From Mediterranea massiliensis (lineage in GTDB: Bacteria > Bacteroidota > Bacteroidia > Bacteroidales > Bacteroidaceae): a stretch of 64,000 bases of DNA. Position 1 is the stretch's first letter; each line of letters begins with the position of its first letter. The position numbers and the translations under genes were made by a program. The DNA lies in contig NZ_LT635837.1 in assembly GCF_900128475.1 (NCBI RefSeq), positions 99,641 to 163,640 of the forward strand, read 5' to 3'. The notes under the pieces are model-generated. The model searched no databases. It was not told the DNA's origin and worked only from the letters and a program-made list of their open reading frames with translations. Below, piece after piece: positions 28,557-43,344 of the stretch.

Positions 28557-28578
28557 TTTTGAGACAGACTCTCTGTGA

Positions 28579-28977
28579 TTATTCCCCGTAAGTGTAGGTC
28601 TTGATAATCGTTCCTTCCGAAGGTTCTGAGGAAGAAACTATCTTACGTATGCTCATGGTACCCTCTACCTGTGGATACTTACTCTGGTGGCTCTGAAAGA
28701 TCTTGTCACAGGCTGCTATCACTTCCTCATCCTTATTAGTCGTGCAATAGTCGCCACCCATCACTTGTTTAAGGGCTGTATCGTAGTCGTCAATCACTGC
28801 CATTACAATCTCAAGACCACCGTCACCCATGACACCGATGACAGGATCAGAGGTATACATTATCAGTTGCATCTCGTTCTTTTCTTCTGAACAAGAGGCC
28901 AAACCAACGGCCATCACAACCACACACATCAGTGCGGCCATACCTCCCCAAATGCTTTTTGTCTTCATACGTCTCAT
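28579..28977 (-). CDS. small putative lipoprotein of unknown function
   Basis: The 132-residue product begins MRRMKTKSIWGG; a start at 28968 is also possible. It has a hydrophobic leader ending in a lipobox (VGLASCSEE), so lipid anchoring is likely. The mature part, about 100 residues, matches no family I recognise. Before element 1 inserted, this gene lay downstream of the DMT gene on the same strand. Two near-identical promoter modules lie directly upstream. Confidence 0.7.
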   Translation of the reverse strand: MRRMKTKSIWGGMAALMCVVVMAVGLASCSEEKNEMQLIMYTSDPVIGVMGDGGLEIVMAVIDDYDTALKQVMGGDYCTTNKDEEVIAACDKIFQSHQSKYPQVEGTMSIRKIVSSSEPSEGTIIKTYTYGE

Positions 28978-29008
28978 TGTTTATATTGGTTAGTAGTTTT
29001 AGTATTGC

Positions 29009-29040
29009 AAAGATAAGGAAAGGTGAGTGCAGAAACAAAC
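29009..29040 (-). promoter_or_regulatory. promoter module, proximal copy, of the small lipoprotein
   Basis: On the minus strand a -33-like TTTG starts a 22-bp segment (29019-29040), followed after two bases by the -7 box TATCTTTG (29009-29016). Initiation would fall about 25 bases before the lipoprotein start. Confidence 0.6.
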
Positions 29041-29091
29041 GAAAAACAAAGTTTTTCAGTTTGACTATGCCGAGCCGCGTCCTATCTTATC

Positions 29092-29123
29092 AAAAGATAG
29101 CGAAAGGTGAGTGCAGAAACAAA
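29092..29123 (-). promoter_or_regulatory. promoter module, distal copy (duplicate)
   Basis: The same 22-bp segment recurs exactly at 29102-29123, 83 bases upstream. After two different bases it is followed by TATCTTTTG, a weaker -7 box. Spacing is as in the proximal copy, so it looks like a duplicated promoter. Confidence 0.45.
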
Positions 29124-29186
29124 TGAATAGAAGAATTTTCTATCTGATCGTGCCAAACCATGTATATAGAGCCCTTCCTTTCAGCG

Positions 29187-29402
29187 TCACTTGTAGAACA
29201 CGAAGTACACGGCCAGCACCAGGCAGACGAAGGCGGCAAAGTGGTTCCAGTGCAACGCCTCGCCCTTGAAGAAGACGGTGGTGAAGAGGGTGAAAATCAT
29301 CAGTGTGATGACCTCCTGAATGACCTTGAGCTGCATCAGCGAGAAGGGACCTCCGTTCTCGACGAAGCCGATGCGGTTGGCGGGCACCTGGAAGGAATAC
29401 TC
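29187..29402 (-). pseudogene. 3' part of a DMT-family (DUF486) gene cut by element 1
   Basis: This fragment encodes residues 52-122 of a four-helix membrane protein, from GAG TAT (EY) through QVPANRIGF to VYFVFYK. It lacks a start codon and the first two helices. The missing 5' part is found at 42289-42447. Joining the two at the shared bases ATACTCG restores an uninterrupted 122-codon gene. The fragment now follows the left end of element 1 and is not expected to be made as a useful protein. Confidence 0.92.
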
Positions 29403-29403
29403 G
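29397..29403. repeat. attL core of element 1 (ATACTCG)
   Basis: The seven bases ATACTCG are shared with the right junction (42289-42295) and occur once in the reconstructed host gene, where they encode parts of E52 and Y53. Large serine recombinases leave such a short shared crossover segment. Confidence 0.85.
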
Positions 29404-29418
29404 CTTAACTAAACAGAC

Positions 29419-29449
29419 TTGCCCAAGTGAAATTTTATACCTATATTTG
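29419..29449 (+). promoter_or_regulatory. promoter of the serine recombinase gene
   Basis: TTG (29419-29421) and TATATTTG (29442-29449) are 20 bases apart. The promoter lies inside the element and partly overlaps the left arm repeat, so recombinase binding at attL could repress its own gene; that is inference. Confidence 0.6.
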
Positions 29450-29472
29450 CTTCATAATCAATATATTACATT

Positions 29473-31287
29473 ATGACAAAAATTATAGGATACGCACGAG
29501 TTTCTACTACAAAACAAGACTTATCTCGACAAAAGTTAAAGATTAAGGAGTTCTGTGAGAACAACAATTATGAGTTAATTGAAATTATTGAGGACTTTGG
29601 AATATCTGGTGTGGTTTCAGACAGAAGAGGTTATCTCGAATTACAAAGTAGAACCTACAAAGATGCAGACATGATAGTAATTTCTGAGTTATCACGTTTG
29701 AGCAGACAAGAAGATGTAACAGAAACAGTTCACAACATTCAACAGATTATTAATAAAGGATTATCTGTAATACTCTTAGATAGTCCCAGTAAAATCTATG
29801 AAGCTAATAAACTTTTAGACATTACAGAAATACTTATCCTCACTATCAAAGCATGGGCAGCAGCACAAGAAAGATTGGATATTAAAAAGAAAAACCAAGA
29901 TGGGAAGCAAGCTCTCTTCCAAGCTTATCCTTATGCAGTTGTTGACCAAAAAATACCTTATGGATATAAAGCAGTTCCTAACCCCAATGGGAAACGTCCT
30001 AAATATATTTTAGAAGAAGTACCAGAAGAAGTAGAGAATATAAAAAGACTCTTCGCTTTAGTAAACTCTGGTAAGACACTGGGAGCAGTAGCCAGATATT
30101 TCAATGAAAGGAATATTACCTTTAGAGGATATTACAGCACTGTTGCCATTTTAAGTAACTATATCCATAGTGATATTTATAGAGGAATCAGAAGAAGAAC
30201 ACAGAAATTAGGGAGAGAAGAACCCTACACTATCGAGGTCAGAATAAAACCTATTATCAATGAAGAGGATTTTATGAAAGCACAAGAGCTGATTAAAAAC
30301 AACTATAAAAATACTCCAACTGGAAAAGTCAATCATAACCCACTAAAAGGAATCATCAAATGTAGATGTGGAAGAGCCATGACTGTAAAAGACAAAAAGC
30401 CAGCAGCAGGAATTTCAAAACTAACATATAGATGTAGCTGTGTTGATAGGAAATCTCATCCAGACTTCTGTAAATATAATATTGATGAAGTTTCCTATGA
30501 CCTTACGAATGAAATATTATATAGTCTTTTCAAATCCATGCACACAGCAGAATATATCAACTTCTTTAGGAATCAAACAGACAATAGAGTTACAGAACTA
30601 CAAGAAGAAATAGCAGGAATTGAGAAACGATTATCTACTCTATATCTTGATAAAGAGAACTTATCTAATGAAAGTAAAGAGAATGCCAACAAGTTCCTAC
30701 TAACCACCAACCCCACCCTTTTAAACATTATCCAAGAGAAACAGAACCAGTTAGATGATAAAATAAAGTCTATAGATAAAGAAATTGTAAAATATAAAAA
30801 ATCGCAGAGTAAAAAAGCAGCAGACATCGAAAGGATTAAAGATAATAATGGTAAAGAGAAGCTTCAAAACCTCAGCATCGAAGAACAAGGAGAACTATAT
30901 CATAAATATTTGGAGAGAGTGAATTATATTCCTGTCACTACCATGCAGGGATATTATATTGTACAGTTCCTTAATGGAATTAAATTCTATATAGCTATTA
31001 CGAAAGTCAGAAGCATTGCAATGGCTTCTCTCCTATTAGACAACTGGACGATTGATGAAAAAGGAATTATAACAGCTAACTATGATACTTTAAAGTCCAG
31101 TGATATGAAGAACTTTAGCATAGAAATGATTAGGAAAACAAAGACTATGACTTTACAAGAATATCTTAAATCAGACCTTGCAAAAGAAAGAGCCTTGCAT
31201 CTTGACCTTAGTTATAGAGAAAGATATTTAAAAGAACTACATAAAGCAGGGTTGGATGGTAGGCTCAGACCATTAAAAAAGGAATAA
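29473..31287 (+). CDS. large serine recombinase (integrase) of element 1
   Basis: The 604-residue protein has an N-terminal resolvase domain (GYARVSTTKQDLSRQ with nucleophile S11, and ISELSRLSRQED). A recombinase domain follows at about residues 160-275, then a zinc ribbon with CRCGRAM and YRCSC (about 298-345), a coiled-coil insertion (about 375-450) and a long C-terminal region. This order is that of phage-type large serine integrases, which join attP and attB without homology. The gene is the first inside the left end, pointing inward, the usual position for such enzymes. Confidence 0.93.
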   Translation: MTKIIGYARVSTTKQDLSRQKLKIKEFCENNNYELIEIIEDFGISGVVSDRRGYLELQSRTYKDADMIVISELSRLSRQEDVTETVHNIQQIINKGLSVILLDSPSKIYEANKLLDITEILILTIKAWAAAQERLDIKKKNQDGKQALFQAYPYAVVDQKIPYGYKAVPNPNGKRPKYILEEVPEEVENIKRLFALVNSGKTLGAVARYFNERNITFRGYYSTVAILSNYIHSDIYRGIRRRTQKLGREEPYTIEVRIKPIINEEDFMKAQELIKNNYKNTPTGKVNHNPLKGIIKCRCGRAMTVKDKKPAAGISKLTYRCSCVDRKSHPDFCKYNIDEVSYDLTNEILYSLFKSMHTAEYINFFRNQTDNRVTELQEEIAGIEKRLSTLYLDKENLSNESKENANKFLLTTNPTLLNIIQEKQNQLDDKIKSIDKEIVKYKKSQSKKAADIERIKDNNGKEKLQNLSIEEQGELYHKYLERVNYIPVTTMQGYYIVQFLNGIKFYIAITKVRSIAMASLLLDNWTIDEKGIITANYDTLKSSDMKNFSIEMIRKTKTMTLQEYLKSDLAKERALHLDLSYRERYLKELHKAGLDGRLRPLKKE

Positions 31288-31335
31288 CTTCATCCTTTTT
31301 AATTATCTTTGCTTCCAAACCATATAAACAAAGAT

Positions 31336-32190
31336 ATGAGACCAATTGAAAGACTTGAAGAAACTTATTTCCCTAAAGGCATAGAGTTACTTGAATACAT
31401 GGAAGAAGTAGCTGTACTTTATGTACCAGATTATGATATAGACCATGAAACAGGAGAACAATATATTTATGGTACAACCGCCTTACCCTTATTCATAAGA
31501 AGATACAATCAGAATAAACTATATGGTAACTTCACATACGAAGATTATATAGCCAATGAGGACATACAGAATACACTGAAAGGTTTAGGAGTTGATATAG
31601 ATAAGTTCTGGTTTCTGCTCCTGTTCATCTTTGATTATACTTGTGGTACGTGTTTGGAGGGGATGAAAGCTACAGGAATTGGAATAGAGCAACTCACCAA
31701 ATTCGCCAAAGCCATAGCAGACAACCATAAGGAGATTAACCAATTTGGAGTAAGTTTTAAGAAGCCTATCACTATCTCTGTAAAGGTGGAGGGCAAGCAT
31801 CAGATAGTAATTGATAATGCCAATGCAATAGGATATTTGGCTACTACCATCATCAATAACCTAAAGGAGATAGAGGAACATCCTTGGATGCAGAGCCAAC
31901 AAGTCAGCATGAACACCCATGCAGAAGAAAAGGAATCCGTTCAGATATGGCTGTTCTATAAGATGTTCAATGACTTCTTCAATTTATCCCCATACAATAA
32001 GCAGTTTAATGTCAGACAAAAGAAAGGAAGCGCCATATCACTCAGTAAGACATTGCTCATATCAAGGCTTATCTACTTCACTAAGCTATCCAAACATAGT
32101 AAATTCTCAGATGATGAAGATGTCCTAAAAGGCTACATCAAGCAATATAAAGACAAGAGAATTGATACAGTGAATAGCATATACTTCTAA
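31336..32190 (+). CDS. hypothetical protein of element 1
   Basis: The start at ATG 31336 (MRPIERLEETYFPKG) gives 284 residues. A longer frame would begin inside the promoter, whose -7 box TATCTTTG is at 31304-31311. The protein is acidic in the first third, has a hydrophobic patch (FWFLLLFIFDYTCGTC, about residues 93-108) and a basic C-terminal part. I recognise no family. It has its own promoter 49 bases after the recombinase and is followed by a terminator, so it is transcribed alone. Confidence 0.65.
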   Translation: MRPIERLEETYFPKGIELLEYMEEVAVLYVPDYDIDHETGEQYIYGTTALPLFIRRYNQNKLYGNFTYEDYIANEDIQNTLKGLGVDIDKFWFLLLFIFDYTCGTCLEGMKATGIGIEQLTKFAKAIADNHKEINQFGVSFKKPITISVKVEGKHQIVIDNANAIGYLATTIINNLKEIEEHPWMQSQQVSMNTHAEEKESVQIWLFYKMFNDFFNLSPYNKQFNVRQKKGSAISLSKTLLISRLIYFTKLSKHSKFSDDEDVLKGYIKQYKDKRIDTVNSIYF

Positions 32191-32211
32191 CAACACACTG
32201 ATAACCAAATA

Positions 32212-32265
32212 ATTCCTACTCCGTACTATTAAGAGAGTACATAAAAGTAGGACTTTTTTTCTCTC
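32212..32265 (+). terminator. terminator after the hypothetical gene
   Basis: A stem with arms TCCTACT/AGTAGGA and inner GTACT/AGTAC is followed by a run of T from 32254. The T run merges with the first of two repeated promoter segments. Confidence 0.65.
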
Positions 32266-32295
32266 TTTTAATCCTGCCATTATATACCATCTTTG
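32258..32295 (+). promoter_or_regulatory. upstream copy of a repeated promoter-like module
   Basis: The 16 bases TTTCTCTCTTTTAATC begin at 32258, and a near -7 box CATCTTTG ends at 32295, 37 bases later. The same layout recurs 99 bases downstream. Confidence 0.4.
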
Positions 32296-32356
32296 CACCG
32301 TCAAAACGATAGCGGACGAGCTACCAATTTAGAGGGGAAGTAAAACCACTCATTAA

Positions 32357-32394
32357 TTTCTCTCTTTTAATCAGCCCAGAAGCCAGTAGCTTTG
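32357..32394 (+). promoter_or_regulatory. downstream copy of the repeated promoter module, for the DGQHR gene
   Basis: TTTCTCTCTTTTAATC (32357-32372) is repeated exactly, and the -7 box TAGCTTTG ends at 32394 with the same 37-base offset. This copy fits the consensus better and would start transcription about 50 bases before the next gene. Confidence 0.55.
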
Positions 32395-32450
32395 CAATAT
32401 CAAAATTAACAAAAGCTGGAGCGCACCAGTCTAAAAACTGCAAAGAAGAT

Positions 32451-33359
32451 ATGATGACTATTTATTTTTATGGCAGTAATCGTGAAATCGTAGCAGAGAA
32501 TGTAAAGAAGTGCTATTCAATGATTGAGAAATATGGCTTTAATGCTGCAATGGGTAAGATTAAGTTAGTTGACAGCGAGGATTTAACAGGAGAGAAATTA
32601 TTAAAGGTTTCCATTGTTCCCAAGTCCAATGCCAAACCTCTTTCAATAGACAACTGGATGCTGAATACAGAAGAGGTTACAGATGCCACTGAAAGAGCAG
32701 CAGCTAAAGCTCCAGTGGATGGACAACACAGGATGATAGCCATGTTCATACTGGAAGTGGAAGGCTATATTGATTTTAATGAAGAAGAAATGACTGAAAC
32801 CATTAAGAAACCAGAGAATATGAGTTTGGCATTATTTACAGCCTCTATCAATAACGGCAGACCTTGGAATTACAAAGACTTTAGCAAATCAAAGTTCCAA
32901 ACAGGAGACGAGAGAATTGATTATATTGAAGCACAAATTCAAGAAACAGGATTGAAGTCTGACGTAATCTATAGCTTTTATACATTAGGGCAACCAGAGG
33001 TTAAAGCTAATGTCGCCAAAGACCTTAAATTGGGCATAAACAGACTACCCAAATCTTTAAAGTTAAATGCAACAACCCAAGAGTTAGGCGATAAAGTTCT
33101 AAAGGCTTTTAAAAGCAGTAAAATCTCTGAATCCACATACGATAATGGAAGATTAGCAAAAGGATTTAAGCTGTTCTACAATGAATACAAACCAGAGATT
33201 AGCCAACTCCAGCAGTTAATCGCCATGATTAGCAAAGATGTGTGGTTTGGTAGTCAGAAGCCAGACGGTAGTGCAGAAGCCAAACAATATTACAAGAATT
33301 TTGAAAAATGGTTCCAATATATGAATGAGAGTAACAACAAGTCTGTAGAAACTGCATAA
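32451..33359 (+). CDS. DGQHR-motif protein (ParB/DndB-like fold suspected)
   Basis: The 302-residue protein carries DGQHRM at residues 90-95 inside APVDGQHRMIAMFILE. This motif marks the ParB/sulfiredoxin-like fold shared by DndB-type regulators and some phage-defence or plasmid proteins. The remainder is a mixed alpha/beta sequence with no other motif I can name. It follows two repeated promoter modules. On a mobile element it might act in partitioning, gene control or defence. The assignment rests on one motif and is tentative. Confidence 0.55.
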   Translation: MMTIYFYGSNREIVAENVKKCYSMIEKYGFNAAMGKIKLVDSEDLTGEKLLKVSIVPKSNAKPLSIDNWMLNTEEVTDATERAAAKAPVDGQHRMIAMFILEVEGYIDFNEEEMTETIKKPENMSLALFTASINNGRPWNYKDFSKSKFQTGDERIDYIEAQIQETGLKSDVIYSFYTLGQPEVKANVAKDLKLGINRLPKSLKLNATTQELGDKVLKAFKSSKISESTYDNGRLAKGFKLFYNEYKPEISQLQQLIAMISKDVWFGSQKPDGSAEAKQYYKNFEKWFQYMNESNNKSVETA

Positions 33360-33423
33360 CCAACTAACAATAAAGCCCATGTGACAGGTGGGCTTAATTC
33401 CTAACCAACTAAATAATAAAACA

Positions 33424-33741
33424 ATGAACCCATATATCATACAATCCAGTTTATATTTAAGCACTATCTACGAAGCAATAATAGCTAAGCAAGAAATACT
33501 AAGAGTTAAAATGCAGCAATATAATGATGTTAAGCTCTACCTGTTCAGTTTCATTCTCCCAGAATACAGCTCTAATGAATATATTAAGAATAGTCTCAAA
33601 CTTTATAATGAAAATGAACTGTTCCCCATTATTATAACTTCCATTACATATAAGGAAGTTAATAATCCAAGAATAGCTTTCAAGAATGAGAATGGAATTA
33701 TACACTTAGTCCTATGTTTTGAACATAACAAGGAGGATTGA
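33424..33741 (+). CDS. small hypothetical protein of element 1
   Basis: The ATG at 33424 gives 105 residues (MNPYIIQSSLYLSTIYEAII). It is a mixed helical/beta protein ending in LVLCFEHNKED, with no motif I recognise. An in-frame non-ATG start at 33388 would be only 28 bases after the DGQHR gene stop; the ATG is preferred. It lies in a run of genes in one direction and is probably co-transcribed with the DGQHR gene. Confidence 0.55.
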   Translation: MNPYIIQSSLYLSTIYEAIIAKQEILRVKMQQYNDVKLYLFSFILPEYSSNEYIKNSLKLYNENELFPIIITSITYKEVNNPRIAFKNENGIIHLVLCFEHNKED

Positions 33742-33903
33742 CAAGGAGCAGGGAAATGTGAGAGGTTTCCCTGCCTACTTAATACTTCTGAATTGTGGTC
33801 TTATCATTAGTTCCCCACTTGTGGAATTACTACTTTTACAGTAGCACAGACAGATAATCCCACCACACAGATTGACGGACTACAAACTATTCAGAATATC
33901 AAA

Positions 33904-34077
33904 ATGGAAGAATTTACCTATGAGCAGATAAGAGCTAAGGCTCTTAAACAGGGAATAAAAGATAATAAGGTTCATATTGGATTATGGGCTAATTTTAATA
34001 ACTATCTAAAGACAAGGAGAAAGAAGAATGGAAAGGTTACTACCTATTATATCTCATTGCAGAAATTGGCTTACTGA
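33904..34077 (+). CDS. very small hypothetical protein
   Basis: This 57-codon frame starts ATG GAA GAA and encodes MEEFTYEQIRAKALKQGI at its start, with a basic middle (KTRRKKNGK) and an even spread of residues typical of a real small protein. There is no Shine-Dalgarno sequence, which is normal for Bacteroidales. It may be a small DNA-binding or regulatory protein; this is unproven. Confidence 0.45.
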   Translation: MEEFTYEQIRAKALKQGIKDNKVHIGLWANFNNYLKTRRKKNGKVTTYYISLQKLAY

Positions 34078-34154
34078 CAAGATAAAAATTGAAGTAGAGA
34101 GATTCATATTGTTAAATCTTTGGGGTGTGCTTATTCACTTTTTACTGCGTGTCT

Positions 34155-34166
34155 AAACACCCCCTC
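34155..34166. repeat. 12-bp repeat AAACACCCCCTC, first copy
   Basis: The 12 bases recur exactly at 35301-35312, so that the pair flanks the small gene and the winged-helix gene between them. C-runs of this kind are rare in this A+T-rich element, and an iteron-like role is possible but unproven. Confidence 0.5.
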
Positions 34167-34263
34167 TCTACACTCCTACGCTACATTCCAATAAGACCCA
34201 TGCAATGTCCTTACGGACACCGCAAAGGTAATCTGTAAGCTGGGAGTAACTAAAATCAATGAT

Positions 34264-34449
34264 ATGTGGATTTATAACAATCATTTCTATAACAAGCTGA
34301 GCGAACTTAGGAAATCCAACAGATTAAGTTCCTCTAAAATGAGATTCTTACTAAAGACCAACCAAATCATTTTAATTAAACATATTGAGCGATTGCCTTA
34401 TGAGTTACGAGAAACTACCATTCAAGGAATATACAGTAATGAGCAATAA
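34264..34449 (+). CDS. small basic hypothetical protein, coupled to the winged-helix gene
   Basis: The 61-residue basic protein begins MWIYNNHFYNKLSELRKSN. Its stop codon overlaps the preferred start of the next gene by 11 bases, an arrangement typical of translational coupling. No family is recognised. If the next gene actually starts at 34400, the overlap would be larger and this small gene less certain. Confidence 0.45.
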   Translation: MWIYNNHFYNKLSELRKSNRLSSSKMRFLLKTNQIILIKHIERLPYELRETTIQGIYSNEQ

Positions 34450-35215
34450 TCTGATTCAGAAATTGGGTTGTGCTGATGTTTACAGGACATACGTGTTACT
34501 ATTGATAGCAAACAAATATACACTGACCACTGACACTACAATAGACGAACTTGCATCATTCGTTGGTGATAAACCTGCCAACTATAATGGTGGTAAGAGT
34601 TCCAAATCATTCAATGACAAGTTAAGAGCCACAGGGGAAGTTGCCATACAGAATAAGGATAGTGGCAGGAATGACAGGACTTGGACTGATTATATATTCT
34701 CTCCTGTCAGTTTTGGACATTACAGAAGAATTGACAGGGAGTTCTACGATTCATATAACAATACTTTGGATTTAAAACTCAGAGGATTCATCCTTAAACT
34801 GTTCAGTGCAGCAGAGCCACACAGCCATACTATTACCTTATCTGTTAGAAAACTGAAAGAGCTAATCCACATGGGGCATGGTACTATCTCCAACTATATA
34901 GAGCAACTAAGGGATATGGACTTATTGGACGAAATTGGAGATTCAATCATATTAAAGGCTAAAGGTCTTATTATAGACTTACCCAAAGATAAATATGTGG
35001 AGGAAGTGAAAACCGACCTTGAACACATGATAGCATTTAACGAGAGCAGAGGGAACCCCATTTCAAGAGAATGCATGATTTACAAGAAATACAAGGAGAA
35101 TAATTTTGAGGGAGTTAAGGATATGCACGCTCTTATGAAATCATTGTCAAGTGGGCTGGTAGGCAGAAAGCAGGAGGTAAAAGACAAAGAAGAACTGCCA
35201 GACCTATTCTTATGA
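34439..35215 (+). CDS. winged-helix protein, possible replication initiator
   Basis: From ATG 34439 the protein has 258 residues. The middle and C-terminal part reads like tandem winged-helix domains: TIDELASFVGD near the start, then SVRKLKELIHMGHGTISNYIEQLRDMDLLDEI. The pattern recalls plasmid Rep or DnaD-like proteins, but no diagnostic motif is seen. A DnaA-box-like TTATGCACA lies just downstream, and the gene is flanked by 12-bp direct repeats. This context supports, without proving, a role in replication of the excised form. An alternative start is ATG 34400. Confidence 0.5.
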   Translation: MSNNLIQKLGCADVYRTYVLLLIANKYTLTTDTTIDELASFVGDKPANYNGGKSSKSFNDKLRATGEVAIQNKDSGRNDRTWTDYIFSPVSFGHYRRIDREFYDSYNNTLDLKLRGFILKLFSAAEPHSHTITLSVRKLKELIHMGHGTISNYIEQLRDMDLLDEIGDSIILKAKGLIIDLPKDKYVEEVKTDLEHMIAFNESRGNPISRECMIYKKYKENNFEGVKDMHALMKSLSSGLVGRKQEVKDKEELPDLFL

Positions 35216-35572
35216 ATCAGTCTAAGCAACCATTAATAAGCATACTGTTGGCAGCATTTCCAATTCTAAAGAGTTATGCACAAGACACCCCTACCCACAT
35301 AAACACCCCCTCATAGCTCTTAAATAAAAAGAATGCTTTAAAAATGTAGTCTGATAGCTGACAGGAATAAGCATTCTTATTTAATCAGAGAACAGGCACG
35401 ATGCACTATTACCATAGCTGACCAATATTTACTATTACTCATAATTTCCTTTGAAAGAATCTTTAGGGAAAGACATAGAACAGCCTAAGATACAAGCGAA
35501 GAAATTCACTTGTGTTTTGGGTTTGTTCTTGTTAAATCCATTCAATCAATAACCATTTAATTCAATTTCATT
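35216..35572. other. gene-free stretch with DnaA-like site and repeat
   Basis: It holds TTATGCACA (35274-35282, one change from the DnaA box), the second copy of AAACACCCCCTC (35301-35312) and a terminator-like inverted repeat. From 35390 to the next start codon at 35573 I see no further clear signal or small gene. Confidence 0.55.
35320..35384. terminator. inverted repeat, probable bidirectional terminator
   Basis: Arms TTAAATAA...GAATGCTT and AAGCATTCTTATTTAA are complementary apart from three extra A in the left arm. The loop is 30 bases. It follows the winged-helix gene and has T-rich ends. Confidence 0.6.
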
Positions 35573-36592
35573 ATGAGAGATTTAGTAATTATGCCAGCTA
35601 TGGCACAGCGTAGAGAATCATTAAACATGGGTGAGTTTGCAGAAGAAGCAATCATTGTGGAAGAAGTTGCAGCACCCAAGAGAGTGAACCATTTCATTGA
35701 AGCCAATACACAGGAAGTAACCTTGCATCATCTGAAACATGACTGCATCATTCCCAGCTTTGCATCAATGGAAGAAACCATTAGTCACCAATCCTTTATA
35801 GGTGCAGTAGTGGATGCAGCTAAGGACTACTTTCATGGAGAGCAGTTTGATATACCAGAGATTAGAATCTCACATCCTATCAATGGAAGAATACCAAGTG
35901 CATTAGGCAAAAAGGCTTCTGAACTGACTGATGCAGAGAAAACATTGTTCTATCAAAGGATGTGCTTCTGCTTTGAAATTCCATCCATTGTGCATGATGA
36001 ATATGGCAATCGTTTGGCATTATCCATTGGTGGAGTAAGAGCATATAACGAGATTAACTTGTACAGTAAGAAATCTGTTGAGAGATTTAAAATCTTCATA
36101 GGCTTTAGAAATCGTGTGTGCTCTAATCTTATGCTTACCACTGACGGCTTGCAGGATAAGATTGAAGTTCTAAGTACACAGGAACTATATGCAGCAGCTT
36201 TGAATTTGTTCCATGCCTACAATCCATCTAAAGACCTGCACTTGTTAAGAACACTTGGGCAGATGTCAATCTCAACAAGCGAGTTCTGCCAAATAATAGG
36301 CAGGATGAGACTATTCCAAGCTCTTACACCCAACCAACAGAAACGCTTACCTCGTCTATTGTTGGGAGACAGTCAGATTAATGCAACTTGCAGAGCATTC
36401 GTTTCAGATGCAAACTTTAAAAGTACAGGAGATAGCATTACAGGCTGGCAGCTACTCAATTTGCTCAATGGTAGTGTGAAGTCAAGCTACATCGATAATT
36501 TCTTGGAGAGGAATTTGAACTGTACAGAGTTTGTACAAGGCATCCAGCGTGCCAAATTAGGAGATAATGAATACGCTTGGTTCTTGGGCTAA
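35573..36592 (+). CDS. DUF3871-family protein
   Basis: The 339-residue protein matches the DUF3871 family known from Bacteroidales mobile elements. Its features include IRISHPINGRIPSALGKKASELTDAEKTL-type text around residues 95-125, LALSIGGVRAYNEINLYSKK, and the tail TGWQLLNLLNGSVKSSYIDNFLERN. The core resembles phage-encoded DUF932-like proteins, whose role is unclear. It has its own leader of about 180 bases without a clear promoter match. The C-terminal codons overlap an open frame of the next region, but the next gene probably starts 86 bases downstream. Confidence 0.7.
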   Translation: MRDLVIMPAMAQRRESLNMGEFAEEAIIVEEVAAPKRVNHFIEANTQEVTLHHLKHDCIIPSFASMEETISHQSFIGAVVDAAKDYFHGEQFDIPEIRISHPINGRIPSALGKKASELTDAEKTLFYQRMCFCFEIPSIVHDEYGNRLALSIGGVRAYNEINLYSKKSVERFKIFIGFRNRVCSNLMLTTDGLQDKIEVLSTQELYAAALNLFHAYNPSKDLHLLRTLGQMSISTSEFCQIIGRMRLFQALTPNQQKRLPRLLLGDSQINATCRAFVSDANFKSTGDSITGWQLLNLLNGSVKSSYIDNFLERNLNCTEFVQGIQRAKLGDNEYAWFLG

Positions 36593-36678
36593 GTGGATTG
36601 TTGATTGAGAGAGGAAAGGGCATCATTGATTTGGTGTCCTTTCTTTATTTCTACCAACCTATTAAAAGATTATACATT

Positions 36679-36954
36679 ATGAATACTAATGATATTGAAA
36701 ACGCAATTAATCACATAATCTCTTTACAGGAGAAGTTGTGTTACTGTGAGAACAATCTACAATACATCAAACGCTTGCAAGCCCTTAAATATTGGCTGCA
36801 CAAGTTTGATTCATTCTTAGATAGGAGCAGCAGGCAGCATGGTGAATATGCAGCAGTTTATGAAAGCTACTTCCACACTTGCTGTGGGTTCTCATTCTAC
36901 GACAGAGTTTGTAACTCTATTCTCGTTTATGAATATGGAGACAGACCATTCTAA
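36679..36954 (+). CDS. small hypothetical protein
   Basis: The ATG at 36679 gives 91 residues (MNTNDIENAINHIISLQEKL), mostly helical, with four cysteines, two of them adjacent in YFHTCCGFSFYD. The frame is open further upstream into the DUF3871 gene, but that part has a non-protein-like composition. The function is unknown; it is often the case that such genes sit between DUF3871 and radC genes in Bacteroidales elements, so co-transfer is likely. Confidence 0.5.
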   Translation: MNTNDIENAINHIISLQEKLCYCENNLQYIKRLQALKYWLHKFDSFLDRSSRQHGEYAAVYESYFHTCCGFSFYDRVCNSILVYEYGDRPF

Positions 36955-36983
36955 TACTTGACATTATTGATATAGATTATAAA

Positions 36984-37412
36984 GTGGGTGAAGTGGAACT
37001 ATCCTACAAACCCAAATTCAAGAATCTGCATAAGGTAGTCAGTTCAGAGGATGCTTATAAATATTTGCTCCCTACATATAGAGAGGGTACAATCTGTTAC
37101 AAGGAATACTTTAAAGTCTTATTTCTTAACCAAGCCAGCCAAATCTTAGGTTACACTCTTATATCAGAGGGAGGGATAACAGACACAACGATTGATGTCA
37201 GAGTAATTCTATAAGCTGCATTACTTACCAATTCTGTAGCTCTTGTTCTTGCACATAACCACCCAAGCGGTAATCTGAAACCAAGCAGGCAGGATATTGA
37301 GATAACGAAGCAGGTTAAGGATGCAGCCCAACTTATGAGAATTACAGTAATAGACCACCTCATTCTTACAGATACAGGATATTACAGCTTCTCTGATGAA
37401 GGACAGTTGTAA
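36984..37412 (+). pseudogene. radC-like JAB/MPN-domain gene with an internal stop codon
   Basis: The frame from GTG 36984 encodes the first 76 residues of a short RadC-like protein, up to DTTIDVRVIL, then meets TAA (37212-37214). The same frame continues without a break with AALLTNSVALVLAHNHPSG through DHLILTDTGYYSF to a stop at 37410. Homologues normally have Q where TAA stands, so CAA has probably changed to TAA. The metal-site residues (HxH, then S and D in SRQD) remain in the downstream half. A sequencing error is possible; otherwise the gene is dead or needs readthrough. Confidence 0.8.
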
Positions 37413-37584
37413 GCTGTTCCTATATATAACAAGGTAAAGGACATTCAATTTCCAAGTTGGGTGTCCTTGCTTAATAATATTCACTTCTATTATTAGTGAA
37501 TGTTCCTTTAGTAATCAATGAGTTAGCAAATCCAACTCAGAATTAATATTCACTTCTATTCGTTTCATTATAAAACAGAACATT

Positions 37585-38172
37585 ATGTCACTCAAATATT
37601 CAAGCACAACCGCAGACTATCTTGTTTGGTCTGATGCAATGAACCTCATAAGGAAGTTAGCCAAAGACGAGAATTATAAAATCTCACTTCTTATAGCTTT
37701 GGGGTGTTTCACAGGATTAAGAATATCTGATATTCTATCTCTAAGGTGGAAGCAGATATTAAGTACTGACGAGTTTACAGTAATTGAGAAAAAGACAGGC
37801 AAGGTAAGAACTATCAGACTGAATCCCCAATTACAGCAGCATATCAAAGAGTGCTACGAGCATATAAACCCAGTTGGGATTAATGCACCTATCTTAGTAA
37901 GTCAGAAAGGCACTATCTTCACAGTTCAGAGAATTAACATCATTCTTAAAGAGGTGAAGAAGAAGTACAGGTTAAAGATTAAGAACTTTAGTTGCCATTC
38001 ACTTAGAAAGACATTTGGCAGGCAGGTCTATAATATGAACAGTGATAATGCTGAACTTGCTTTGGTAAAGCTGATGGAACTGTTTAATCATAGTTCAGTT
38101 GCCATTACTAAGAGATACTTGGGGTTAAGACAGGAAGAAATCTTACAGACTTATGACTGTTTGAGCTTCTAA
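37585..38172 (+). CDS. short tyrosine recombinase (catalytic domain only)
   Basis: The 195-residue protein has the catalytic residues of the tyrosine recombinase family: R in TGLRISD, the K of the beta hairpin (KKTGKVRTIRL), HxxR in HSLRKTF, H in LFNHSS and Y in KRYLGL. The N-terminal core-binding domain of normal integrases is missing, so it is about half the usual size. Since the element ends fit a serine recombinase, this enzyme may act in another reaction such as dimer resolution or inversion; that is inference. Confidence 0.8.
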   Translation: MSLKYSSTTADYLVWSDAMNLIRKLAKDENYKISLLIALGCFTGLRISDILSLRWKQILSTDEFTVIEKKTGKVRTIRLNPQLQQHIKECYEHINPVGINAPILVSQKGTIFTVQRINIILKEVKKKYRLKIKNFSCHSLRKTFGRQVYNMNSDNAELALVKLMELFNHSSVAITKRYLGLRQEEILQTYDCLSF

Positions 38173-38924
38173 TAATTGGGACAGGATTATTAAGATTCAT
38201 CTTATATAGTGGTCTGAATGGTTCTGTCCCAAATACATAAAATATTGAGCTTAGATACATCTAAAGTCCAATTTTAGTAGTTTGGCATTTCAGCCTTATA
38301 GAAGTAAGTCAATTCCATCAATTTACAGAGTTTAGAACTATCTCAACTCTTATTAGTCATGTTGGAGGTAGCACTTCTTAAATATCCAACAATATGCTAA
38401 CTTAAAGCTCATAATTCAAGATAGGTGGGAATATTCAGAATTTATCCTTATAAGGGCAGAAGTGAATTTACTACCTGCATGGATTTAGAGGGTTCAGATG
38501 CAGTTCTGATTAAAAATCTCATTCAGACCATGTTTGAAAGCAGGACATTTACTATTTCTTCTCACTTCCTACCTAATGATTTAAAACCTTTCATTATCTT
38601 TGTACCAATTTCAATGACCTAATGCGTTAGGGAGTTGGAAGGACATATTTAACGAAAGGTGTTATTGAAATTATCTTCTAAAGTCAAATTCTCGCAAAAT
38701 TTGTAACGCTGTGAAGATGGTAGCAATAGCATCCACATCATTTGTTATATACCTACCTTTTATAAGGTTTCTATATCTCAAATTGGTGTGGGGCTATTGT
38801 TTTATCCACAGCAAGGCAATGCGAGAAGCCAGACTTTAGGGTAAAACATATATAGTTCCCACACCTTTTTTATTTAGTAACGGCTTATCCACAGGGAACA
38901 GGTGAGCACAATTAAAATTATTGC
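38173..38924. other. 752-base region with two perfect DnaA boxes
   Basis: No convincing gene is seen. A 47-codon frame (38479-38622, MDLEGSDAVLIKNLIQTMF) is possible but weak. TTATCCACA, the DnaA-box consensus, occurs at 38802-38810 and at 38885-38893, in the same direction and 83 bases apart. The DNA between them is mixed, while the region upstream is A+T-rich. It could be an origin or a DnaA-controlled promoter for the gene starting at 38925. Confidence 0.55.
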
Positions 38925-39680
38925 ATGAAAGAACTATTCCAAGTTTTGAATAGAGAGGATAGAATTTCTATACTCAAAATATTGTCTTTATTGATAAATG
39001 AATCCAATAAGACAAACTACAATGATAATAGTGATTGGATTTTAGCCTTTAATGAAGTGGGATTTAGAACTGACGACATTAATATTAATGAAATCTTATC
39101 TAATATTGACATGGATGTTTATAACACTCCATTAGAAGATTGGCAAGTCCAAGCACTCAATTCGATATGCTTTCTTGAGAATATTCTAATCTTTAGATAT
39201 GTTCCAGACGATGAGCCAAAAGAAGCTATCTATATCCAACGAGAAGCGGAAACCTATCGTAAGATAGATAAGAATAGACCATTCCCCCTATGTCACTTAC
39301 CATTAATGCCAGAAGAAGTAGTTAGAATGATGACACTTCGAGCTTCAAAGCTATTTGGCAATGATACTAACATTTGGTTTGATACAGAGAATCTACGCAT
39401 TACTTTGAGTAGAGGGTTTGATAATTCATATATCTCGTTCAACGACAGAATAAATGAATTTAACATTTGGTTTGAAGACTCATTCATGAGATTTGTTGGA
39501 GGAGCAGAATGGAACACCAAAAAAGAGCCATATCGTACTTTATTTGTCAATGAATGGCTAAAGTCTGGAACAACGATTGTACTTGATAAACTATTTGAAG
39601 GCTTTTCATCAAATGGTTTAGACATTAGATACAATGCCAATGTTGGAATGGGATTACACATCATAATCAGATTAAATTAA
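38925..39680 (+). CDS. hypothetical protein of element 1
   Basis: The 251-residue protein begins MKELFQVLNREDRISILKIL and is acidic, without a signal peptide or membrane segment, so it is probably cytoplasmic. A stretch rich in aromatic residues (FNIWFEDSFMRFVGGAEWN) lies in the second half. I recognise no family. The start is 31 bases after a DnaA box, and the gene is 11 bases from the lipoprotein gene, suggesting one transcript. Confidence 0.6.
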   Translation: MKELFQVLNREDRISILKILSLLINESNKTNYNDNSDWILAFNEVGFRTDDININEILSNIDMDVYNTPLEDWQVQALNSICFLENILIFRYVPDDEPKEAIYIQREAETYRKIDKNRPFPLCHLPLMPEEVVRMMTLRASKLFGNDTNIWFDTENLRITLSRGFDNSYISFNDRINEFNIWFEDSFMRFVGGAEWNTKKEPYRTLFVNEWLKSGTTIVLDKLFEGFSSNGLDIRYNANVGMGLHIIIRLN

Positions 39681-39691
39681 ATAACTATGAA

Positions 39692-40903
39692 ATGACTATG
39701 AGAACAATAAGATTATTAGCTACCTCATTATTGGTTGCATTAAGCATGGGAGTTAGTTCCTGTGGGGATGATGAATTGGATATGCAACCAACAGTATCTT
39801 ATCCAGAGGGAAGTGAACCTTTAGATATAGTCTGTAAAGAATATGGCATTAGTGACTATGAAGACATCGAATTACTTAATTACCATAAGAACGGTTTGGA
39901 ACAAGCTAACTTCTCTGGCTTACGAGAGGACAAGCTATGGCTTGCATCATTCAATGTAAAGGATAAATCTCCAATTATAAATTGGACTGATGAGTTGCCT
40001 TTTAATAGGAATCGTAGAATTTACAAAGGCTATGGAGAATATGAAGATGTCACTATTCAACAGATAACATTGTTACAGACCATATACTTTAATCCAAGTG
40101 AATTTGTAGCATCATTAAGCTACTACTTTGATAAAGATTATGGCTACCCTGCTTTAATCTTTAGACATGATACACAAACTAAAGAAGTTCAAGTTAAGCG
40201 TAGTGAAATATTTGCAGGATTTCAATATTCTATAATAAACAATGATTGTTGTTACTCATTGTTTGGCGATACTCTCTATATAGCAGAGAAAGGCTTTGGA
40301 TATTCTAATATAGGAACTCTCTATACATCTGAACTTATATCTCATGAAGAAGCAATCTACAGTCATAGAGATAATAAAGGCTTCTTTGTGGGGAAAAGGA
40401 GTTTTAAATTGGGAGAGGATTTATGGCATATCCAAGTACCACAGCTAAATGATGAACCTGCTGATGCTAAGATTGAGGTCAGTGTAGAAGATAAATCTAC
40501 GCCAGTTTGGAAGTTCAATGTCAATATTACACATTATGATGGGACTAAGAAGAATGTAACATTTGAAGTAGATACTGATAATGGTACAATCAAAGGACAG
40601 GATGATTATGCTTCCCTTATTATAGGTAAATGGAAGAAGACAAGCGGTGATGCTATTGCTACTCATGTAACTTATAAGAACGATGGTACATTTGAATACA
40701 CAAGTTCAGAAGATAGCTCTTATAAGGAAGTTGGTAAATACAAAATAGATGGTAACAAGCTCTATGAAATGTACAGCGATGAAGATGAATGGATTATCAG
40801 TGATATTCTATTGCTTAATTCTATGACTTTATCAGTGCAGGAATTGGAAGCTGATGGAGTAACACCCAGCGGTAAGAAGTTTGCTTATCAAAGAGTGGAG
40901 TAA
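39692..40903 (+). CDS. lipoprotein with C-terminal lipocalin-like domain
   Basis: The 403-residue protein has a leader (RLLATSLLVALSMGVSSC) with a lipobox at about C24, so it should be exported and lipid-anchored. The large N-terminal region is unassigned. The last 100 residues (IIGKWKKTSGDAIATHVTYKNDGTFEYTS onward) look like the lipocalin-like domain of many Bacteroidales lipoproteins and resemble the smaller lipoprotein at 41316. It may be surface exposed, as the aspartates after the cysteine fit a lipoprotein export signal. Function unknown. Confidence 0.7.
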   Translation: MTMRTIRLLATSLLVALSMGVSSCGDDELDMQPTVSYPEGSEPLDIVCKEYGISDYEDIELLNYHKNGLEQANFSGLREDKLWLASFNVKDKSPIINWTDELPFNRNRRIYKGYGEYEDVTIQQITLLQTIYFNPSEFVASLSYYFDKDYGYPALIFRHDTQTKEVQVKRSEIFAGFQYSIINNDCCYSLFGDTLYIAEKGFGYSNIGTLYTSELISHEEAIYSHRDNKGFFVGKRSFKLGEDLWHIQVPQLNDEPADAKIEVSVEDKSTPVWKFNVNITHYDGTKKNVTFEVDTDNGTIKGQDDYASLIIGKWKKTSGDAIATHVTYKNDGTFEYTSSEDSSYKEVGKYKIDGNKLYEMYSDEDEWIISDILLLNSMTLSVQELEADGVTPSGKKFAYQRVE

Positions 40904-41315
40904 GAACTCATACATAATTGGTGGGGACAGCGTTTAAAATTATTTGAATACTGTTTCCATTCATAAAGAGGGATTACCTGCAAGTGGTGGATTGACGGCA
41001 GGTGATGTGTTTAGGCAAATATGAAACTATATGATTAAACATGAACATAGATAAGTACAAAGTGACGCAGAGGCTATTTAGATACTACCTAATCTATCAC
41101 CTTGTCTATGATTTGTACATATTAGGACAATTTATCTATTGGTACTTTTCAGCAAGCCAATCAACATGGTATCATCGAATGATGGATAACCCTATAATGC
41201 TTTAGAAGTACTAATAATAGGACCAATTTCATTAATAAGTGGAATAATTCACATTATAATTTGACTATTAAACGACATTTGAAAGAACTTATATTAACTA
41301 ATAAATTATTTAACA
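40904..41315. other. 412-base gap with one doubtful small frame
   Basis: A 54-codon frame at 41041-41205 (MNIDKYKVTQRLFRYY at its start) is rich in aromatic and hydrophobic residues and could be a small membrane peptide or a gene remnant. I see no -7 box in front of it and no inverted repeat in the rest of the gap. Confidence 0.35.
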
Positions 41316-41774
41316 ATGAAGACATTTAAATTACTTGGAATGACCTTATTAATGGTCTTGTGTGCTGTAAACTTCACTGCTTGCAGCGATGATGATGAGA
41401 ATGATAAAGCTGCGATTGAAGAAGCCAACTTGATTGGTAGATGGCAATCCACTTGGGAGAAGATTCACAAGGTAGAGAATGGCAAGGAAGTTGTTACTTC
41501 TGATGAAGCCTATACCAATGCCCTATTAGAGTTCAAAGCTGACGGTACTTGCATAGAGAGCCGCGTTGACGGTGGATACACAGAAACCAACCGCTGGTCT
41601 CTAAAGGGTGATAAGCTAACTATCTCTTACAATGATGGTTATTCTGATGTTCTTACCGTCAATGAGCTTACAGCTACCAAGTTAGTACTTGCCTTTGAAG
41701 ATTGGGACAGCACAGATGATGGAGGTGAGGAATTAGATGATATTACTACGACCACTTACAAGAAGATAAACTAA
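41316..41774 (+). CDS. small lipocalin-like lipoprotein
   Basis: The 152-residue protein has a lipoprotein leader (LLMVLCAVNFTACSDDDEND, lipid cysteine at about 23). A compact beta-rich domain follows, starting with LIGRWQSTWEK and containing FKADGTCIESR and KLTISYNDGY, typical of the lipocalin-like families in Bacteroidales. It resembles the C-terminal domain of the larger lipoprotein upstream, so the two may have arisen by duplication. A terminator follows at 41797. Confidence 0.75.
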   Translation: MKTFKLLGMTLLMVLCAVNFTACSDDDENDKAAIEEANLIGRWQSTWEKIHKVENGKEVVTSDEAYTNALLEFKADGTCIESRVDGGYTETNRWSLKGDKLTISYNDGYSDVLTVNELTATKLVLAFEDWDSTDDGGEELDDITTTTYKKIN

Positions 41775-41796
41775 TTACCCAAACTTATTTAAGACG

Positions 41797-41828
41797 GAGC
41801 AGCATTTAAGGAAACTCTTATGCTGCTC
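41797..41828. terminator. terminator between the lipoprotein and the DMT copy
   Basis: Arms GAGCAGCAT and ATGCTGCTC are perfectly complementary around a 14-base loop. It separates two convergent genes and may stop transcription from either side. Confidence 0.65.
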
Positions 41829-41838
41829 TCTTCTATAA

Positions 41839-42210
41839 CTATTTCATAAACACAAAATAGACAGCCAATATTAAGCAAACAAAGGCAGCCATGTGATTCC
41901 AATGCAAAGTTTCACCTTTAAAGAATACAGTTGTAAAGACTGTGAATATGATAAGAGTTATCACTTCTTGAATAACTTTCAACTGCATCAATGAAAATGG
42001 TCCCCCATTACCACTAAATCCAATGCGATTCGCTGGAATTTGACAAGAATACTCAAAAAAAGCAATTGACCAACTAAAAGCTATTACACCTATCAATGGA
42101 AGAGCAGCAAACCAAGGATATTCCTGTTTCATCTTTAAATGACCATACCAAGCAAAAGTCATAAAGACATTCGATACTATAAGCAATAAAATCGTGAAGA
42201 GAGCTTTCAT
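41839..42210 (-). CDS. intact DMT-family (DUF486) membrane protein carried by element 1
   Basis: The 123-residue protein has four membrane helices and is very similar, along its full length, to the host protein broken by the element. Shared stretches include FMTFAWYGHLK, PANRIGF, NGGPFSLMQLKVIQEVITL and FFKGE. Codons are more A+T-rich than in the host copy. It reads in the same direction as the host gene and starts 34 bases after the stop of the truncated host frame. It can therefore be transcribed from the host ttcA unit and replace the lost protein. The family is of unknown function. Confidence 0.9.
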   Translation of the reverse strand: MKALFTILLLIVSNVFMTFAWYGHLKMKQEYPWFAALPLIGVIAFSWSIAFFEYSCQIPANRIGFSGNGGPFSLMQLKVIQEVITLIIFTVFTTVFFKGETLHWNHMAAFVCLILAVYFVFMK

Positions 42211-42257
42211 ATTATTCTAATTCTACATACATTATTATATATATCAACGTGAAGTGT

Positions 42258-42273
42258 TAAAACTCCAGTTGGG
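42258..42273. repeat. right inner arm of element 1 (inverted partner of 29422-29437)
   Basis: TAAAACTCCAGTTGGG is the inverted counterpart, at 13 of 16 positions, of CCCAAGTGAAATTTTA at the left end. The arms lie 15 and 18 bases from the core and are the likely binding sites of the recombinase zinc domain. Confidence 0.7.
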
Positions 42274-42288
42274 TTTTTCTATTTTATT

Positions 42289-42295
42289 ATACTCG
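42289..42295. repeat. attR core of element 1 (ATACTCG)
   Basis: This is the second copy of the 7-bp segment at 29397-29403. The bases to its right continue the host gene; the bases to its left are A+T-rich element DNA. Confidence 0.85.
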
Positions 42296-42447
42296 GCCAG
42301 GGCAATGGCCCACGAGAAGAGGATGACGGCGTAGAGCGGCCAGTTGGAAATGACCTTCATCTCCTGCAACTTCAGGTGGCCGTACCAGGCGAACGTCATG
42401 AAGATGTTCGACACGATGAGCAGAAGGATGGTGTAGAATGCTTTCAT
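42289..42447 (-). pseudogene. 5' part of the DMT-family gene cut by element 1
   Basis: This fragment encodes residues 1-53 (MKAFYTILLLIVSNIFMTFA through IALAEY), about the first two helices. The frame then continues into the element for 14 foreign codons and stops at 42244. An alternative ATG three codons upstream is at 42456. It starts 26 bases after the ttcA-like gene on the same strand, so the original gene was probably co-transcribed with it. Confidence 0.92.
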
Positions 42448-42472
42448 ATCTATCAATATTAACTATATAATT

Positions 42473-43216
42473 TCAAATCTTGGGCGGGAGAAGCTCCTCC
42501 TGCACGTTCGTCATGCTGGCCCAAAGGCTATAGCGCGCCTCGGGGTTCATCTCCTCGAGGCGGCGGAGGACGTCGCGCATGTCCGAGCGGTGGGAGTCGT
42601 GCTCATAAGGGCAGTTCTTCACCTGCTTGCGGTAGGCGTGGGCGGCGGCCAGAGCCTCGAGGTCGGCCTCGTGCACCAGGCAGAGGGGGCGGACGATGGT
42701 CATGTCGAACTTCTTCATCACCAGCCGTGGAGGCATGGTGGAGAAGGCCCCCTGGAAAGTCTGGTTCATGAGGAGTGTCACGAGGATGTCGTCCATGTGG
42801 TGGCCCAGGGCAATCTTGTTGCAACCCAGTTCGTGGGCGGCGGTGAAGAGCTCCTTGCGGCGGTTCCACGAGCAGAGGAAGCAGGGCGACTTGCGCGTGT
42901 CGGTCGAGGCGTCGAACTCCGCCTCGCGCAGGACGAAGGGCACTCCCCGCTCCTCGCAAAAAGAGCGCAGGTAACCGGCATCGATACTATAAGGAATGTT
43001 GCGCATGGCCACGTGGACGGCGGTCAGCGTGAAGCGCGGACGGTAGATGCGGGCGCGTCGGGCCAGCAGCTCCGTCAAGGCCAGCGAGTCCTTGCCGCCC
43101 GAAAGGCCTACGAGGAGGCGGTCGCCGTCTTCAATGAGGCCGTAATCCACGATGCCCTTCATCAGGCGTCGCTCGATGCGCAGCATCAGTTGTTGTTCTT
43201 CCGTCCGTTTTACCAT
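42473..43216 (-). CDS. ttcA: TtcA-family tRNA thiolation enzyme (PP-loop ATPase)
   Basis: The start at 43216 gives 247 residues; the longer frame runs across the promoter and is rejected. The PP-loop motif is LSGGKDS (about residues 37-43). The paired cysteines of CFLCSWNRR and a later cysteine in KNCPYE fit the iron-sulfur TtcA type that makes 2-thiocytidine-32 in tRNA. A related PP-loop role is possible. It is the first gene of the unit whose second gene has been cut by element 1. Confidence 0.8.
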   Translation of the reverse strand: MVKRTEEQQLMLRIERRLMKGIVDYGLIEDGDRLLVGLSGGKDSLALTELLARRARIYRPRFTLTAVHVAMRNIPYSIDAGYLRSFCEERGVPFVLREAEFDASTDTRKSPCFLCSWNRRKELFTAAHELGCNKIALGHHMDDILVTLLMNQTFQGAFSTMPPRLVMKKFDMTIVRPLCLVHEADLEALAAAHAYRKQVKNCPYEHDSHRSDMRDVLRRLEEMNPEARYSLWASMTNVQEELLPPKI

Positions 43217-43237
43217 CACATTTCCGTTTTGCGGGCG

Positions 43238-43245
43238 CAAAAGTA
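43238..43245 (-). promoter_or_regulatory. -7 promoter box of the ttcA unit
   Basis: On the minus strand TACTTTTG fits TAnnTTTG, 22 bases before the ttcA start at 43216. It also supports the shorter ttcA start. Confidence 0.55.
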
Positions 43246-43308
43246 GTGCAAAAGAATGAATTGGAGAAGAAAACCGACGGCAAAGAGACATTATTTGGGA
43301 GAAATTCG

Positions 43309-43316
43309 TATCTTTG
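43309..43316 (+). promoter_or_regulatory. -7 promoter box of the TPR/PD40 gene
   Basis: TATCTTTG lies 29 bases before the ATG at 43345. The in-frame ATG at 43324 would be almost leaderless, and 43246 lies upstream of the promoter. Confidence 0.6.
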
Positions 43317-43344
43317 GACGCAAATGACCAAAGACCTTTCACGT

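Follow-up and report, generated by a model that had tools for sequence, protein, structure and literature searches.

A serine recombinase element of Bacteroidales that very probably carries a whole-gene replacement for the DUF486 gene it splits

A broken gene and its complete homologue

What becomes of a host function when a mobile element lands inside the gene that encodes it? The question is raised by a locus of Mediterranea massiliensis, within a stretch of 64,000 nucleotides of contig NZ_LT635837.1 that is here called the window, where a DUF486 gene, which encodes a small membrane protein, is cut in two by an integrated element with a complete DUF486 gene of its own. Judged from sequence comparison, the element, which is driven by a large serine recombinase (LSR), very probably targets a Glu-Tyr site in the DUF486 gene, for which it brings a full orthologue as a replacement, and the host probably keeps its DUF486 function. 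The features concerned are as follows.

29403..42294, no strand assigned: integrated element, 12,892 bp counted from GA to GA, junctions compared over nine carriers
42293..42447, minus strand: N-terminal half of the host DUF486 gene, with its ATG at 42447
29187..29402, minus strand: C-terminal half of the host DUF486 gene
41839..42210, minus strand: complete DUF486/DMT_6 gene, the putative replacement copy, 123 aa, four long helices predicted
42211..42294, minus strand: element leader of 84 nt, with the right arm of the element attachment site (attP), 16 codons that prolong the broken frame, a stop and 33 nt to the ATG of the copy
29473..31287, plus strand: LSR, 604 aa, with Resolvase (E 6.5e-22), Recombinase (2.7e-11) and zinc ribbon (22.7 bits) matches

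A first-pass annotation of the window had described a split DMT/DUF486 gene with a full homologue on the same strand just inside the right end of the element, and this arrangement stands. The host halves cover positions 1-43 and 46-104 of the 104 positions of the Pfam DMT_6 profile and are complementary pieces of one gene, and the copy spans the whole profile (1-104, E=1.1e-44). A search of the genome returned only three DUF486 matches, namely the copy and the two halves. The copy is A+T-rich (GC 34% vs 55% for the joined host gene; GC at third codon positions 31% vs 89%) and, as the annotation had also held, is no simple duplication of the host gene. The bounds annotated for the element, 29397-42295, were correct to within 6 bases, the exact crossover dinucleotide, GA in gene sense and TC on the plus strand, lying at 29401-29402 and 42293-42294. 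The split had been placed between codons 53 and 54 but sits inside a Glu codon, which is Glu52 of the joined host protein (122 aa) and Glu53 of the copy, and the copy follows the stop of the truncated frame at a distance of 33 nt, not 34. A chance layout is excluded because the identical layout recurs in eight other genomes.

The same layout in nine carriers

Relatives of the LSR were sought in genome_contigs, which holds one genome per species for 84,980 species; a single-protein query of this kind finds close relatives only. Six loci were retrieved at 97-98% identity (Bacteroides salyersiae, B. faecalis, B. timonensis, Phocaeicola massiliensis and two metagenome-assembled genomes), and in all six the C-terminal DUF486 half adjoins the LSR. 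With the copy as query, each of these genomes gives exactly three matches, a complete copy, an N-terminal half and a C-terminal half, and the complete copies are 92-94% identical to that of the window. An eighth close carrier, G812, came from a genus survey and has the same layout and an LSR that is 97% identical. The ninth, G219, is a different species with an LSR of 38% identity; here a single contig holds the same layout within about 20 kb, and there are once more exactly three DUF486 matches. The element ends are on two contigs in G394 and G398, the remaining seven carriers being on single contigs.

All nine carriers found, the window included, have the insertion in the same gene, codon and orientation, with both host halves present and a complete copy just within the right end; apart from this element copy no whole DUF486 gene was found in any of them. 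The first-pass annotation had proposed looking for the same recombinase and asking whether its insertions lie in this gene with a copy at the right end, and nine of nine carriers fit. It had also named what would speak against its reading, that is, copy-bearing elements in other genes or insertions here without a copy, and neither occurred in the searched genomes.

The crossover site

The cut falls in the Glu-Tyr codons in all nine carriers, and the Glu-Tyr pair is invariant across 39 aligned DUF486 proteins. The exchange is placed at GA because host and element letters diverge to the left of GA in B. salyersiae and to the right of it in G812. The attP arms are imperfect inverted repeats centred on GA, with 17 of 26 matching positions in each of the window, B. 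salyersiae and G219, compared with at most 12 of 26 when ten other centres were scored in these three attP as a control. This symmetry supports the GA crossover independently of the junction comparison. The LSR and the copy are at opposite ends of the element, so that both flank attP in the circle. As in other LSR elements, three domains occur in one long protein and the attP repeats surround a short core; the zinc ribbon of the window LSR scores just under the cut-off of 25.3, and the G219 LSR passes for all three domains.

Position and expression of the copy

The gene just upstream of the split gene bears on how the copy may be expressed.

42473..43417, minus strand: ttcA-like PP-loop gene, best NCBIfam model TtcA (E 6e-50, under the curated cut-off)

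Of 29 native loci, which are the best matches to the copy and not a random sample, 23 have ttcA upstream on the same strand, as do seven of eight hosts and also G812. The gap to ttcA measures 377 nt in G397, and no ttcA was found at the host locus of G394. The copy is in sense, 83-85 nt behind the break in the eight close elements and 82 nt in G219. In each of the eight close elements the broken reading frame continues for 16 codons of element sequence, with the count starting at the Glu codon, and its stop precedes the ATG of the copy by 32-34 nt.

TAnnTTTG is a Bacteroides promoter motif, and none was found in the 83-85 nt leader of any of the eight close elements. The G219 leader has six added codons, a gap of 61 nt and one TAnnTTTG box. 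The two hosts that have no close ttcA possess such a box within 250 nt upstream of the broken gene, and it is absent in the other seven; small as these numbers are, the pattern agrees with transcription of the copy from the promoter of the host gene, whichever that was. Two sigma-70-like sites in the window leader on the strand of the copy make a promoter of its own possible, with four such sites in the whole region against 2.1 expected, but they were given no weight because Bacteroides promoters differ from the sigma-70-like type. The copy is likely expressed from the host operon by co-transcription with ttcA.

It is proposed that the non-palindromic crossover dinucleotide would fix the orientation of insertion, so that the host promoter, usually that of ttcA, would transcribe the copy. 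The stop supplied by the element closes the broken frame ahead of the copy, which would make the lost protein. Such a replacement would lower the cost of insertion, and the copy would stay under selection even as the rest of the element decays.

Origin of the copies and selection on them

The copies of seven close elements are 92-99% identical as proteins and the joined genes of their hosts 61-93% (G812 is not included), that is, the copies track the element and not the hosts, and a coincidental duplicate was rejected on this ground. The host gene and the copy at the same locus share 70-82% identity in eight carriers. Mean pairwise nonsynonymous (dN) and synonymous (dS) divergences of the copies are 0.019 and 0.166, a ratio of 0.115 over 21 pairs with G219 and G812 left out; three close pairs in this set have at most three changes, with ratios of 0.29, 0.58 or undefined. 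From these values the copies are under purifying selection.

The window copy shares 90-93% identity with five intact native genes of the genus of B. faecalis, all preceded by ttcA, which makes this group of Bacteroides the likely donor of the main copy. The G219 copy is 81% identical to the native gene of B. salyersiae, 79% to those of B. timonensis and B. faecalis, 73% to its own host gene and 70% to the window copy. In a tree of 46 rows, in which the bootstrap had not settled and G812 was not included, six of the seven close copies form a supported group and the G219 copy groups with three natives of another group (support 98/74). The data are read as two independent captures by two diverged LSR lineages.

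A decayed locus in G460

G460 is a relative of P. massiliensis, with 90% DNA identity over the compared part of ttcA. It retains ttcA, a cut-down N-terminal host remnant, the attR arm and leader of the element and an intact copy (96% identical). Behind the copy there are about 40-55 bases of element type, followed by a stretch of about 470 bases that matches none of the elements and by no more than the last host C-terminal codons. No LSR was present in the 20 kb read, and G460 is absent from the LSR profile matches in 399 family genomes, by its handles the same set that contained G460. The copy is the only DUF486 match of this genome and has a dN/dS of 0.04-0.09 against the element copies. Since the attR arm, the leader and host remnants flank an intact lone copy, G460 is a locus in which the element decayed and the replacement was kept. 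The possibility that it represents a pre-element ancestor was rejected, as the locus holds the attR arm, leader and N-terminal remnant, with the last C-terminal host codons behind the copy. G460 indicates that the copy, and not the element, was what the host retained.

Surveys and the search for insertions without a copy

A DUF486 gene is present in 329 of 399 genomes of the family of B. faecalis, 205 of 393 of the order Bacteroidales, 141 of 157 of the genus of B. faecalis and 54 of 61 of the genus of P. massiliensis; these four sets overlap. Across these surveys split genes around a complete copy occur in carriers only, the second matches of G869 and G899 and the genomes with a partial match or none aside. 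The sequence of the leader plus the start of the copy, allowing up to 2 mismatches, was found in four genomes of the B. faecalis genus, each of them a carrier, and the reversed control in none, with 157 genomes covered.

Insertions without a copy were sought as genomes with more than one DUF486 match, some judged by match coordinates only. Outside this search fall genomes with a single partial match or with none (70/399, 188/393, 16/157 and 7/61 without a match), where decayed halves could hide, and also the second matches found in G869 and G899. Among the multi-match genomes looked at, no Glu-Tyr split with an element but without a copy was found. The candidates that were rejected comprise G585, whose second match is distant (29%), G627 and G628, with matches at contig ends, G769 (G769:C13), where one strand bears two DUF486 genes at a distance of 3.7 kb, one of them with a stop, G100, G207 and G222, with adjacent, degraded DUF486 pieces, and G918 and G816, with two whole genes each. 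G089 was rejected as well, its second gene being degenerate and 19 kb away. This frameshifted DUF486 gene (G089:C85) is on the same strand as the intact one and possibly reflects another replacement history; no LSR search was made there.

Seven distant LSRs of about 28-31% identity were also considered (two in G690, the second in G393 and those of G653, G685, G078 and G121). No DUF486 was found in the 12-40 kb round each of them, with element ends unmapped and some contigs short, and no downstream homologue of the 1.5 kb upstream of these LSRs was found in the same stretches. Weak as this control is, it points to replacement as a trait of the clade that targets DUF486. The two LSR genes of G690 (G690:C1:616885 and 2963342) have equal profile scores, each is beside a similar-looking gene and their upstream sequences are alike, which suggests one element type at two related target genes. 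No relatives of the window LSR were found in viral_contigs and no near DNA matches of the element in plasmids or phages.

The DUF486 protein

The predicted fold of the protein (mean predicted local distance difference test score 86) places the cut inside the second of four long helices. Its best solved-structure match is the small multidrug resistance (SMR) transporter Gdx-Clo (probability 0.99, E 0.23, template modelling score about 0.5), and an SMR-like fold is tentatively assigned from this model. To our knowledge the DUF486 family has no known function.

Alternative explanations

The copy could be kept for what distinguishes it from the resident gene: the element would gain by its own version, such as an allele resistant to a phage, bacteriocin or drug that acts on the native protein, and restoration would be a side effect. 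The divergence between the copy and the gene it replaces agrees with such an allele swap, and an SMR-like fold, itself a weak match, would permit mixed dimers with the resident protein, comparable to the argument made for RecA in the available part of PMC4405046. However, the identity of the main copy to intact native Bacteroides genes marks it as an ordinary allele and there is no known agent that acts on DUF486, which leaves the swap unlikely. The copy could instead serve mainly as a restored host attachment site (attB), a landing site for further elements with incidental coding. Sixteen attB positions are invariant in seven hosts, and all 16 are kept in the seven close copies and 15 in the G219 copy; G812, found later, has GAA for GAG, so that one of the 16 is not strictly invariant. 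The copy may restore an attB, and nothing suggests escape from its own recombinase. This retention is weak evidence, however, because the invariant positions mostly encode conserved residues. No unusual DNA conservation was found round the attB of the copy, the longest unchanged run (11 codons from codon 17, shuffle P 0.20) missing the core, and tandem insertions were seen in none of the nine carriers. An attB requires only some tens of bases, whereas the whole frame of 123 codons is intact and under the selection given above, and a mainly att-based role is very improbable.

That a DUF486 gene was picked up by chance, with no role for the host, could explain the eight recently related close elements by a single event. 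It is hard to reconcile with the diverged LSR lineage, whose copy, of another origin, occupies an identical position in the same sense, or with the persistence of the copy amid changing neighbour cargo and after element decay in G460, and hardly deserves credence. An assembly artefact or an unrelated gene duplication can practically be dismissed: the element ends of G394 and G398 are on two contigs, but the seven single-contig carriers include the named isolates B. salyersiae, B. faecalis and P. massiliensis, and the copies follow the element and not the host.

Several observations nevertheless weigh against replacement as the explanation. The eight close elements share a recent ancestor and are not eight independent captures, so that independent support comes from the two captures, G460 and the measured selection. 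The tree does not separate the copies of the window and G460 from native genes, and the G219 copy, with a box in its leader, may use its own promoter. There is no DUF486 match in 188 of 393 Bacteroidales genomes or in G059, a genus-mate of the window genome that is 99% complete; DUF486 is dispensable for many species and can be lost.

Replacement of the broken gene remains the favoured explanation, and the earlier proposal that the element eases its insertion by resupplying this gene in the original operon is supported by the full copy in nine of nine carriers. If it is true, this would be a repeated case of a mobile element that offsets its damage with a whole foreign version, set behind the host transcript by the geometry of the recombinase, and one route by which a chromosomal gene is displaced by an orthologue from another species. 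The locus would also offer, in Bacteroides and Phocaeicola, a natural site for insertions that comes with its own compensation, and elements that keep the gene suggest that loss of DUF486 is costly in the gut. A more far-reaching version, plausible enough to be considered though held only tentatively, is a self-renewing orthologue displacement, in which a directional LSR breaks the gene and drops a promoterless foreign orthologue with an intact attB, the locus stays a landing site for the next element with the next orthologue and, after decay, the foreign gene is the only copy, as in G460. On this version it would be insertion, in place of homologous recombination, that takes a widespread operon gene from one species to another.

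Other genes of the element

Apart from the LSR and the copy, the element contains the following genes.

31309..32190, plus strand: unknown protein, also in the G219 element (32% identity)
32451..33359, plus strand: unknown protein, also in the G219 element (31% identity)
34385..35215, plus strand: possible replication protein, weak DnaD-like PHROG match (E 0.0066)
35573..36592, plus strand: DUF3871 protein
37585..38172, plus strand: tyrosine recombinase, 195 aa, without the usual N-terminal part, in six of six close one-contig elements
38925..41774, plus strand: variable cargo of three proteins, which other close elements lack or have in diverged form

Of ten window element genes compared, the LSR, the copy and two others recur in G219, and the copy is kept in all seven one-contig elements while other cargo varies. 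The lipoprotein-like cargo genes of the window (39692-40903 and 41316-41774) have weak TIGR03066 matches, the second also matching the BSAP-5i immunity model (E 0.002) and Lipocalin_4. The variable cargo of the B. salyersiae element (L037 7878-9731) is a 617-aa protein, and that of G397 (L042 11049-14905) includes a 350-aa lipoprotein-like protein and others. A RadC-like JAB domain fragment of 76 aa (36984-37214) looks truncated, the G397 element having a 148-aa version at the same place. Pfam models gave no relaxase, coupling protein or conjugation function among 17 window element proteins, several being unknown and small frames not all scanned. PHROGs, run on ten proteins, returned integrases and the one weak DnaD-like match only; no PADLOC matches occurred among eight proteins and no Rfam families in 28500-43600. 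Just outside the host C-terminal half there is a 47-nt direct repeat (29009-29055 and 29093-29139, 83% identical, 84 nt apart).

Comparison with known systems

Some islands restore the end of a tRNA or protein gene on integration. SGI1, in the available text of PMC8409611, integrates at the 3' end of trmE. Such islands likewise leave the target gene usable, but there an element part is fused to the host part across att, whereas the DUF486 copy forms a complete frame of its own after an in-frame stop in nine of nine carriers. Streptococcal integrative and conjugative elements with serine integrases also insert within protein genes (rumA, hsdM, mutT and traG), which they disrupt or with which the integrase gene exchanges 3' parts; the part of PMC4701971 at hand mentions no replacement homologue. 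Phage HK022 alters expression at its target locus torS by supplying a promoter to the host gene (PMC6814406, in part), whereas the DUF486 element gives a gene to a probable host promoter.

The first-pass annotation knew of no description of such a replacement. For this family none was found: the full-text literature, in which most subscription papers are not covered, yielded nothing on such an element, either in Bacteroidales or with DUF486, and the accessible portion of PMC7449626 contains no precedent. Whole-gene replacement as such does have precedents (PMC4405046, PMC5991714, each as far as its available text goes). The integrative element Tn6283 favours bcp as its target in Escherichia coli and encodes a homologue of the bcp product at 54.8% identity; its authors propose compensation, which they term speculation, and compare it with the recA mobile element (RME). 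Tn6283 differs in its recombinase system and also inserts elsewhere on a plasmid (PMC5991714). The RME of Vibrio cholerae S24 sits in recA by site-specific insertion into the chromosomal gene and carries a complete divergent recA from another species, and its excision was shown (PMC4405046). It encodes a phage integrase and a XerS-type recombinase, no LSR being mentioned in the available text, its recA has its own LexA-type promoter, and insertion occurs in both orientations (PMC4405046). The DUF486 element, in contrast, has an LSR, one orientation, a leader without a recognised promoter box in eight of nine carriers, a copy captured twice and a decayed locus where that copy persists. With DUF486 as both target and copy it is no RME and resembles it in its way of working only. 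Whole-gene replacement is thus already known from at least two other systems, and the DUF486 case is a variant of that idea.

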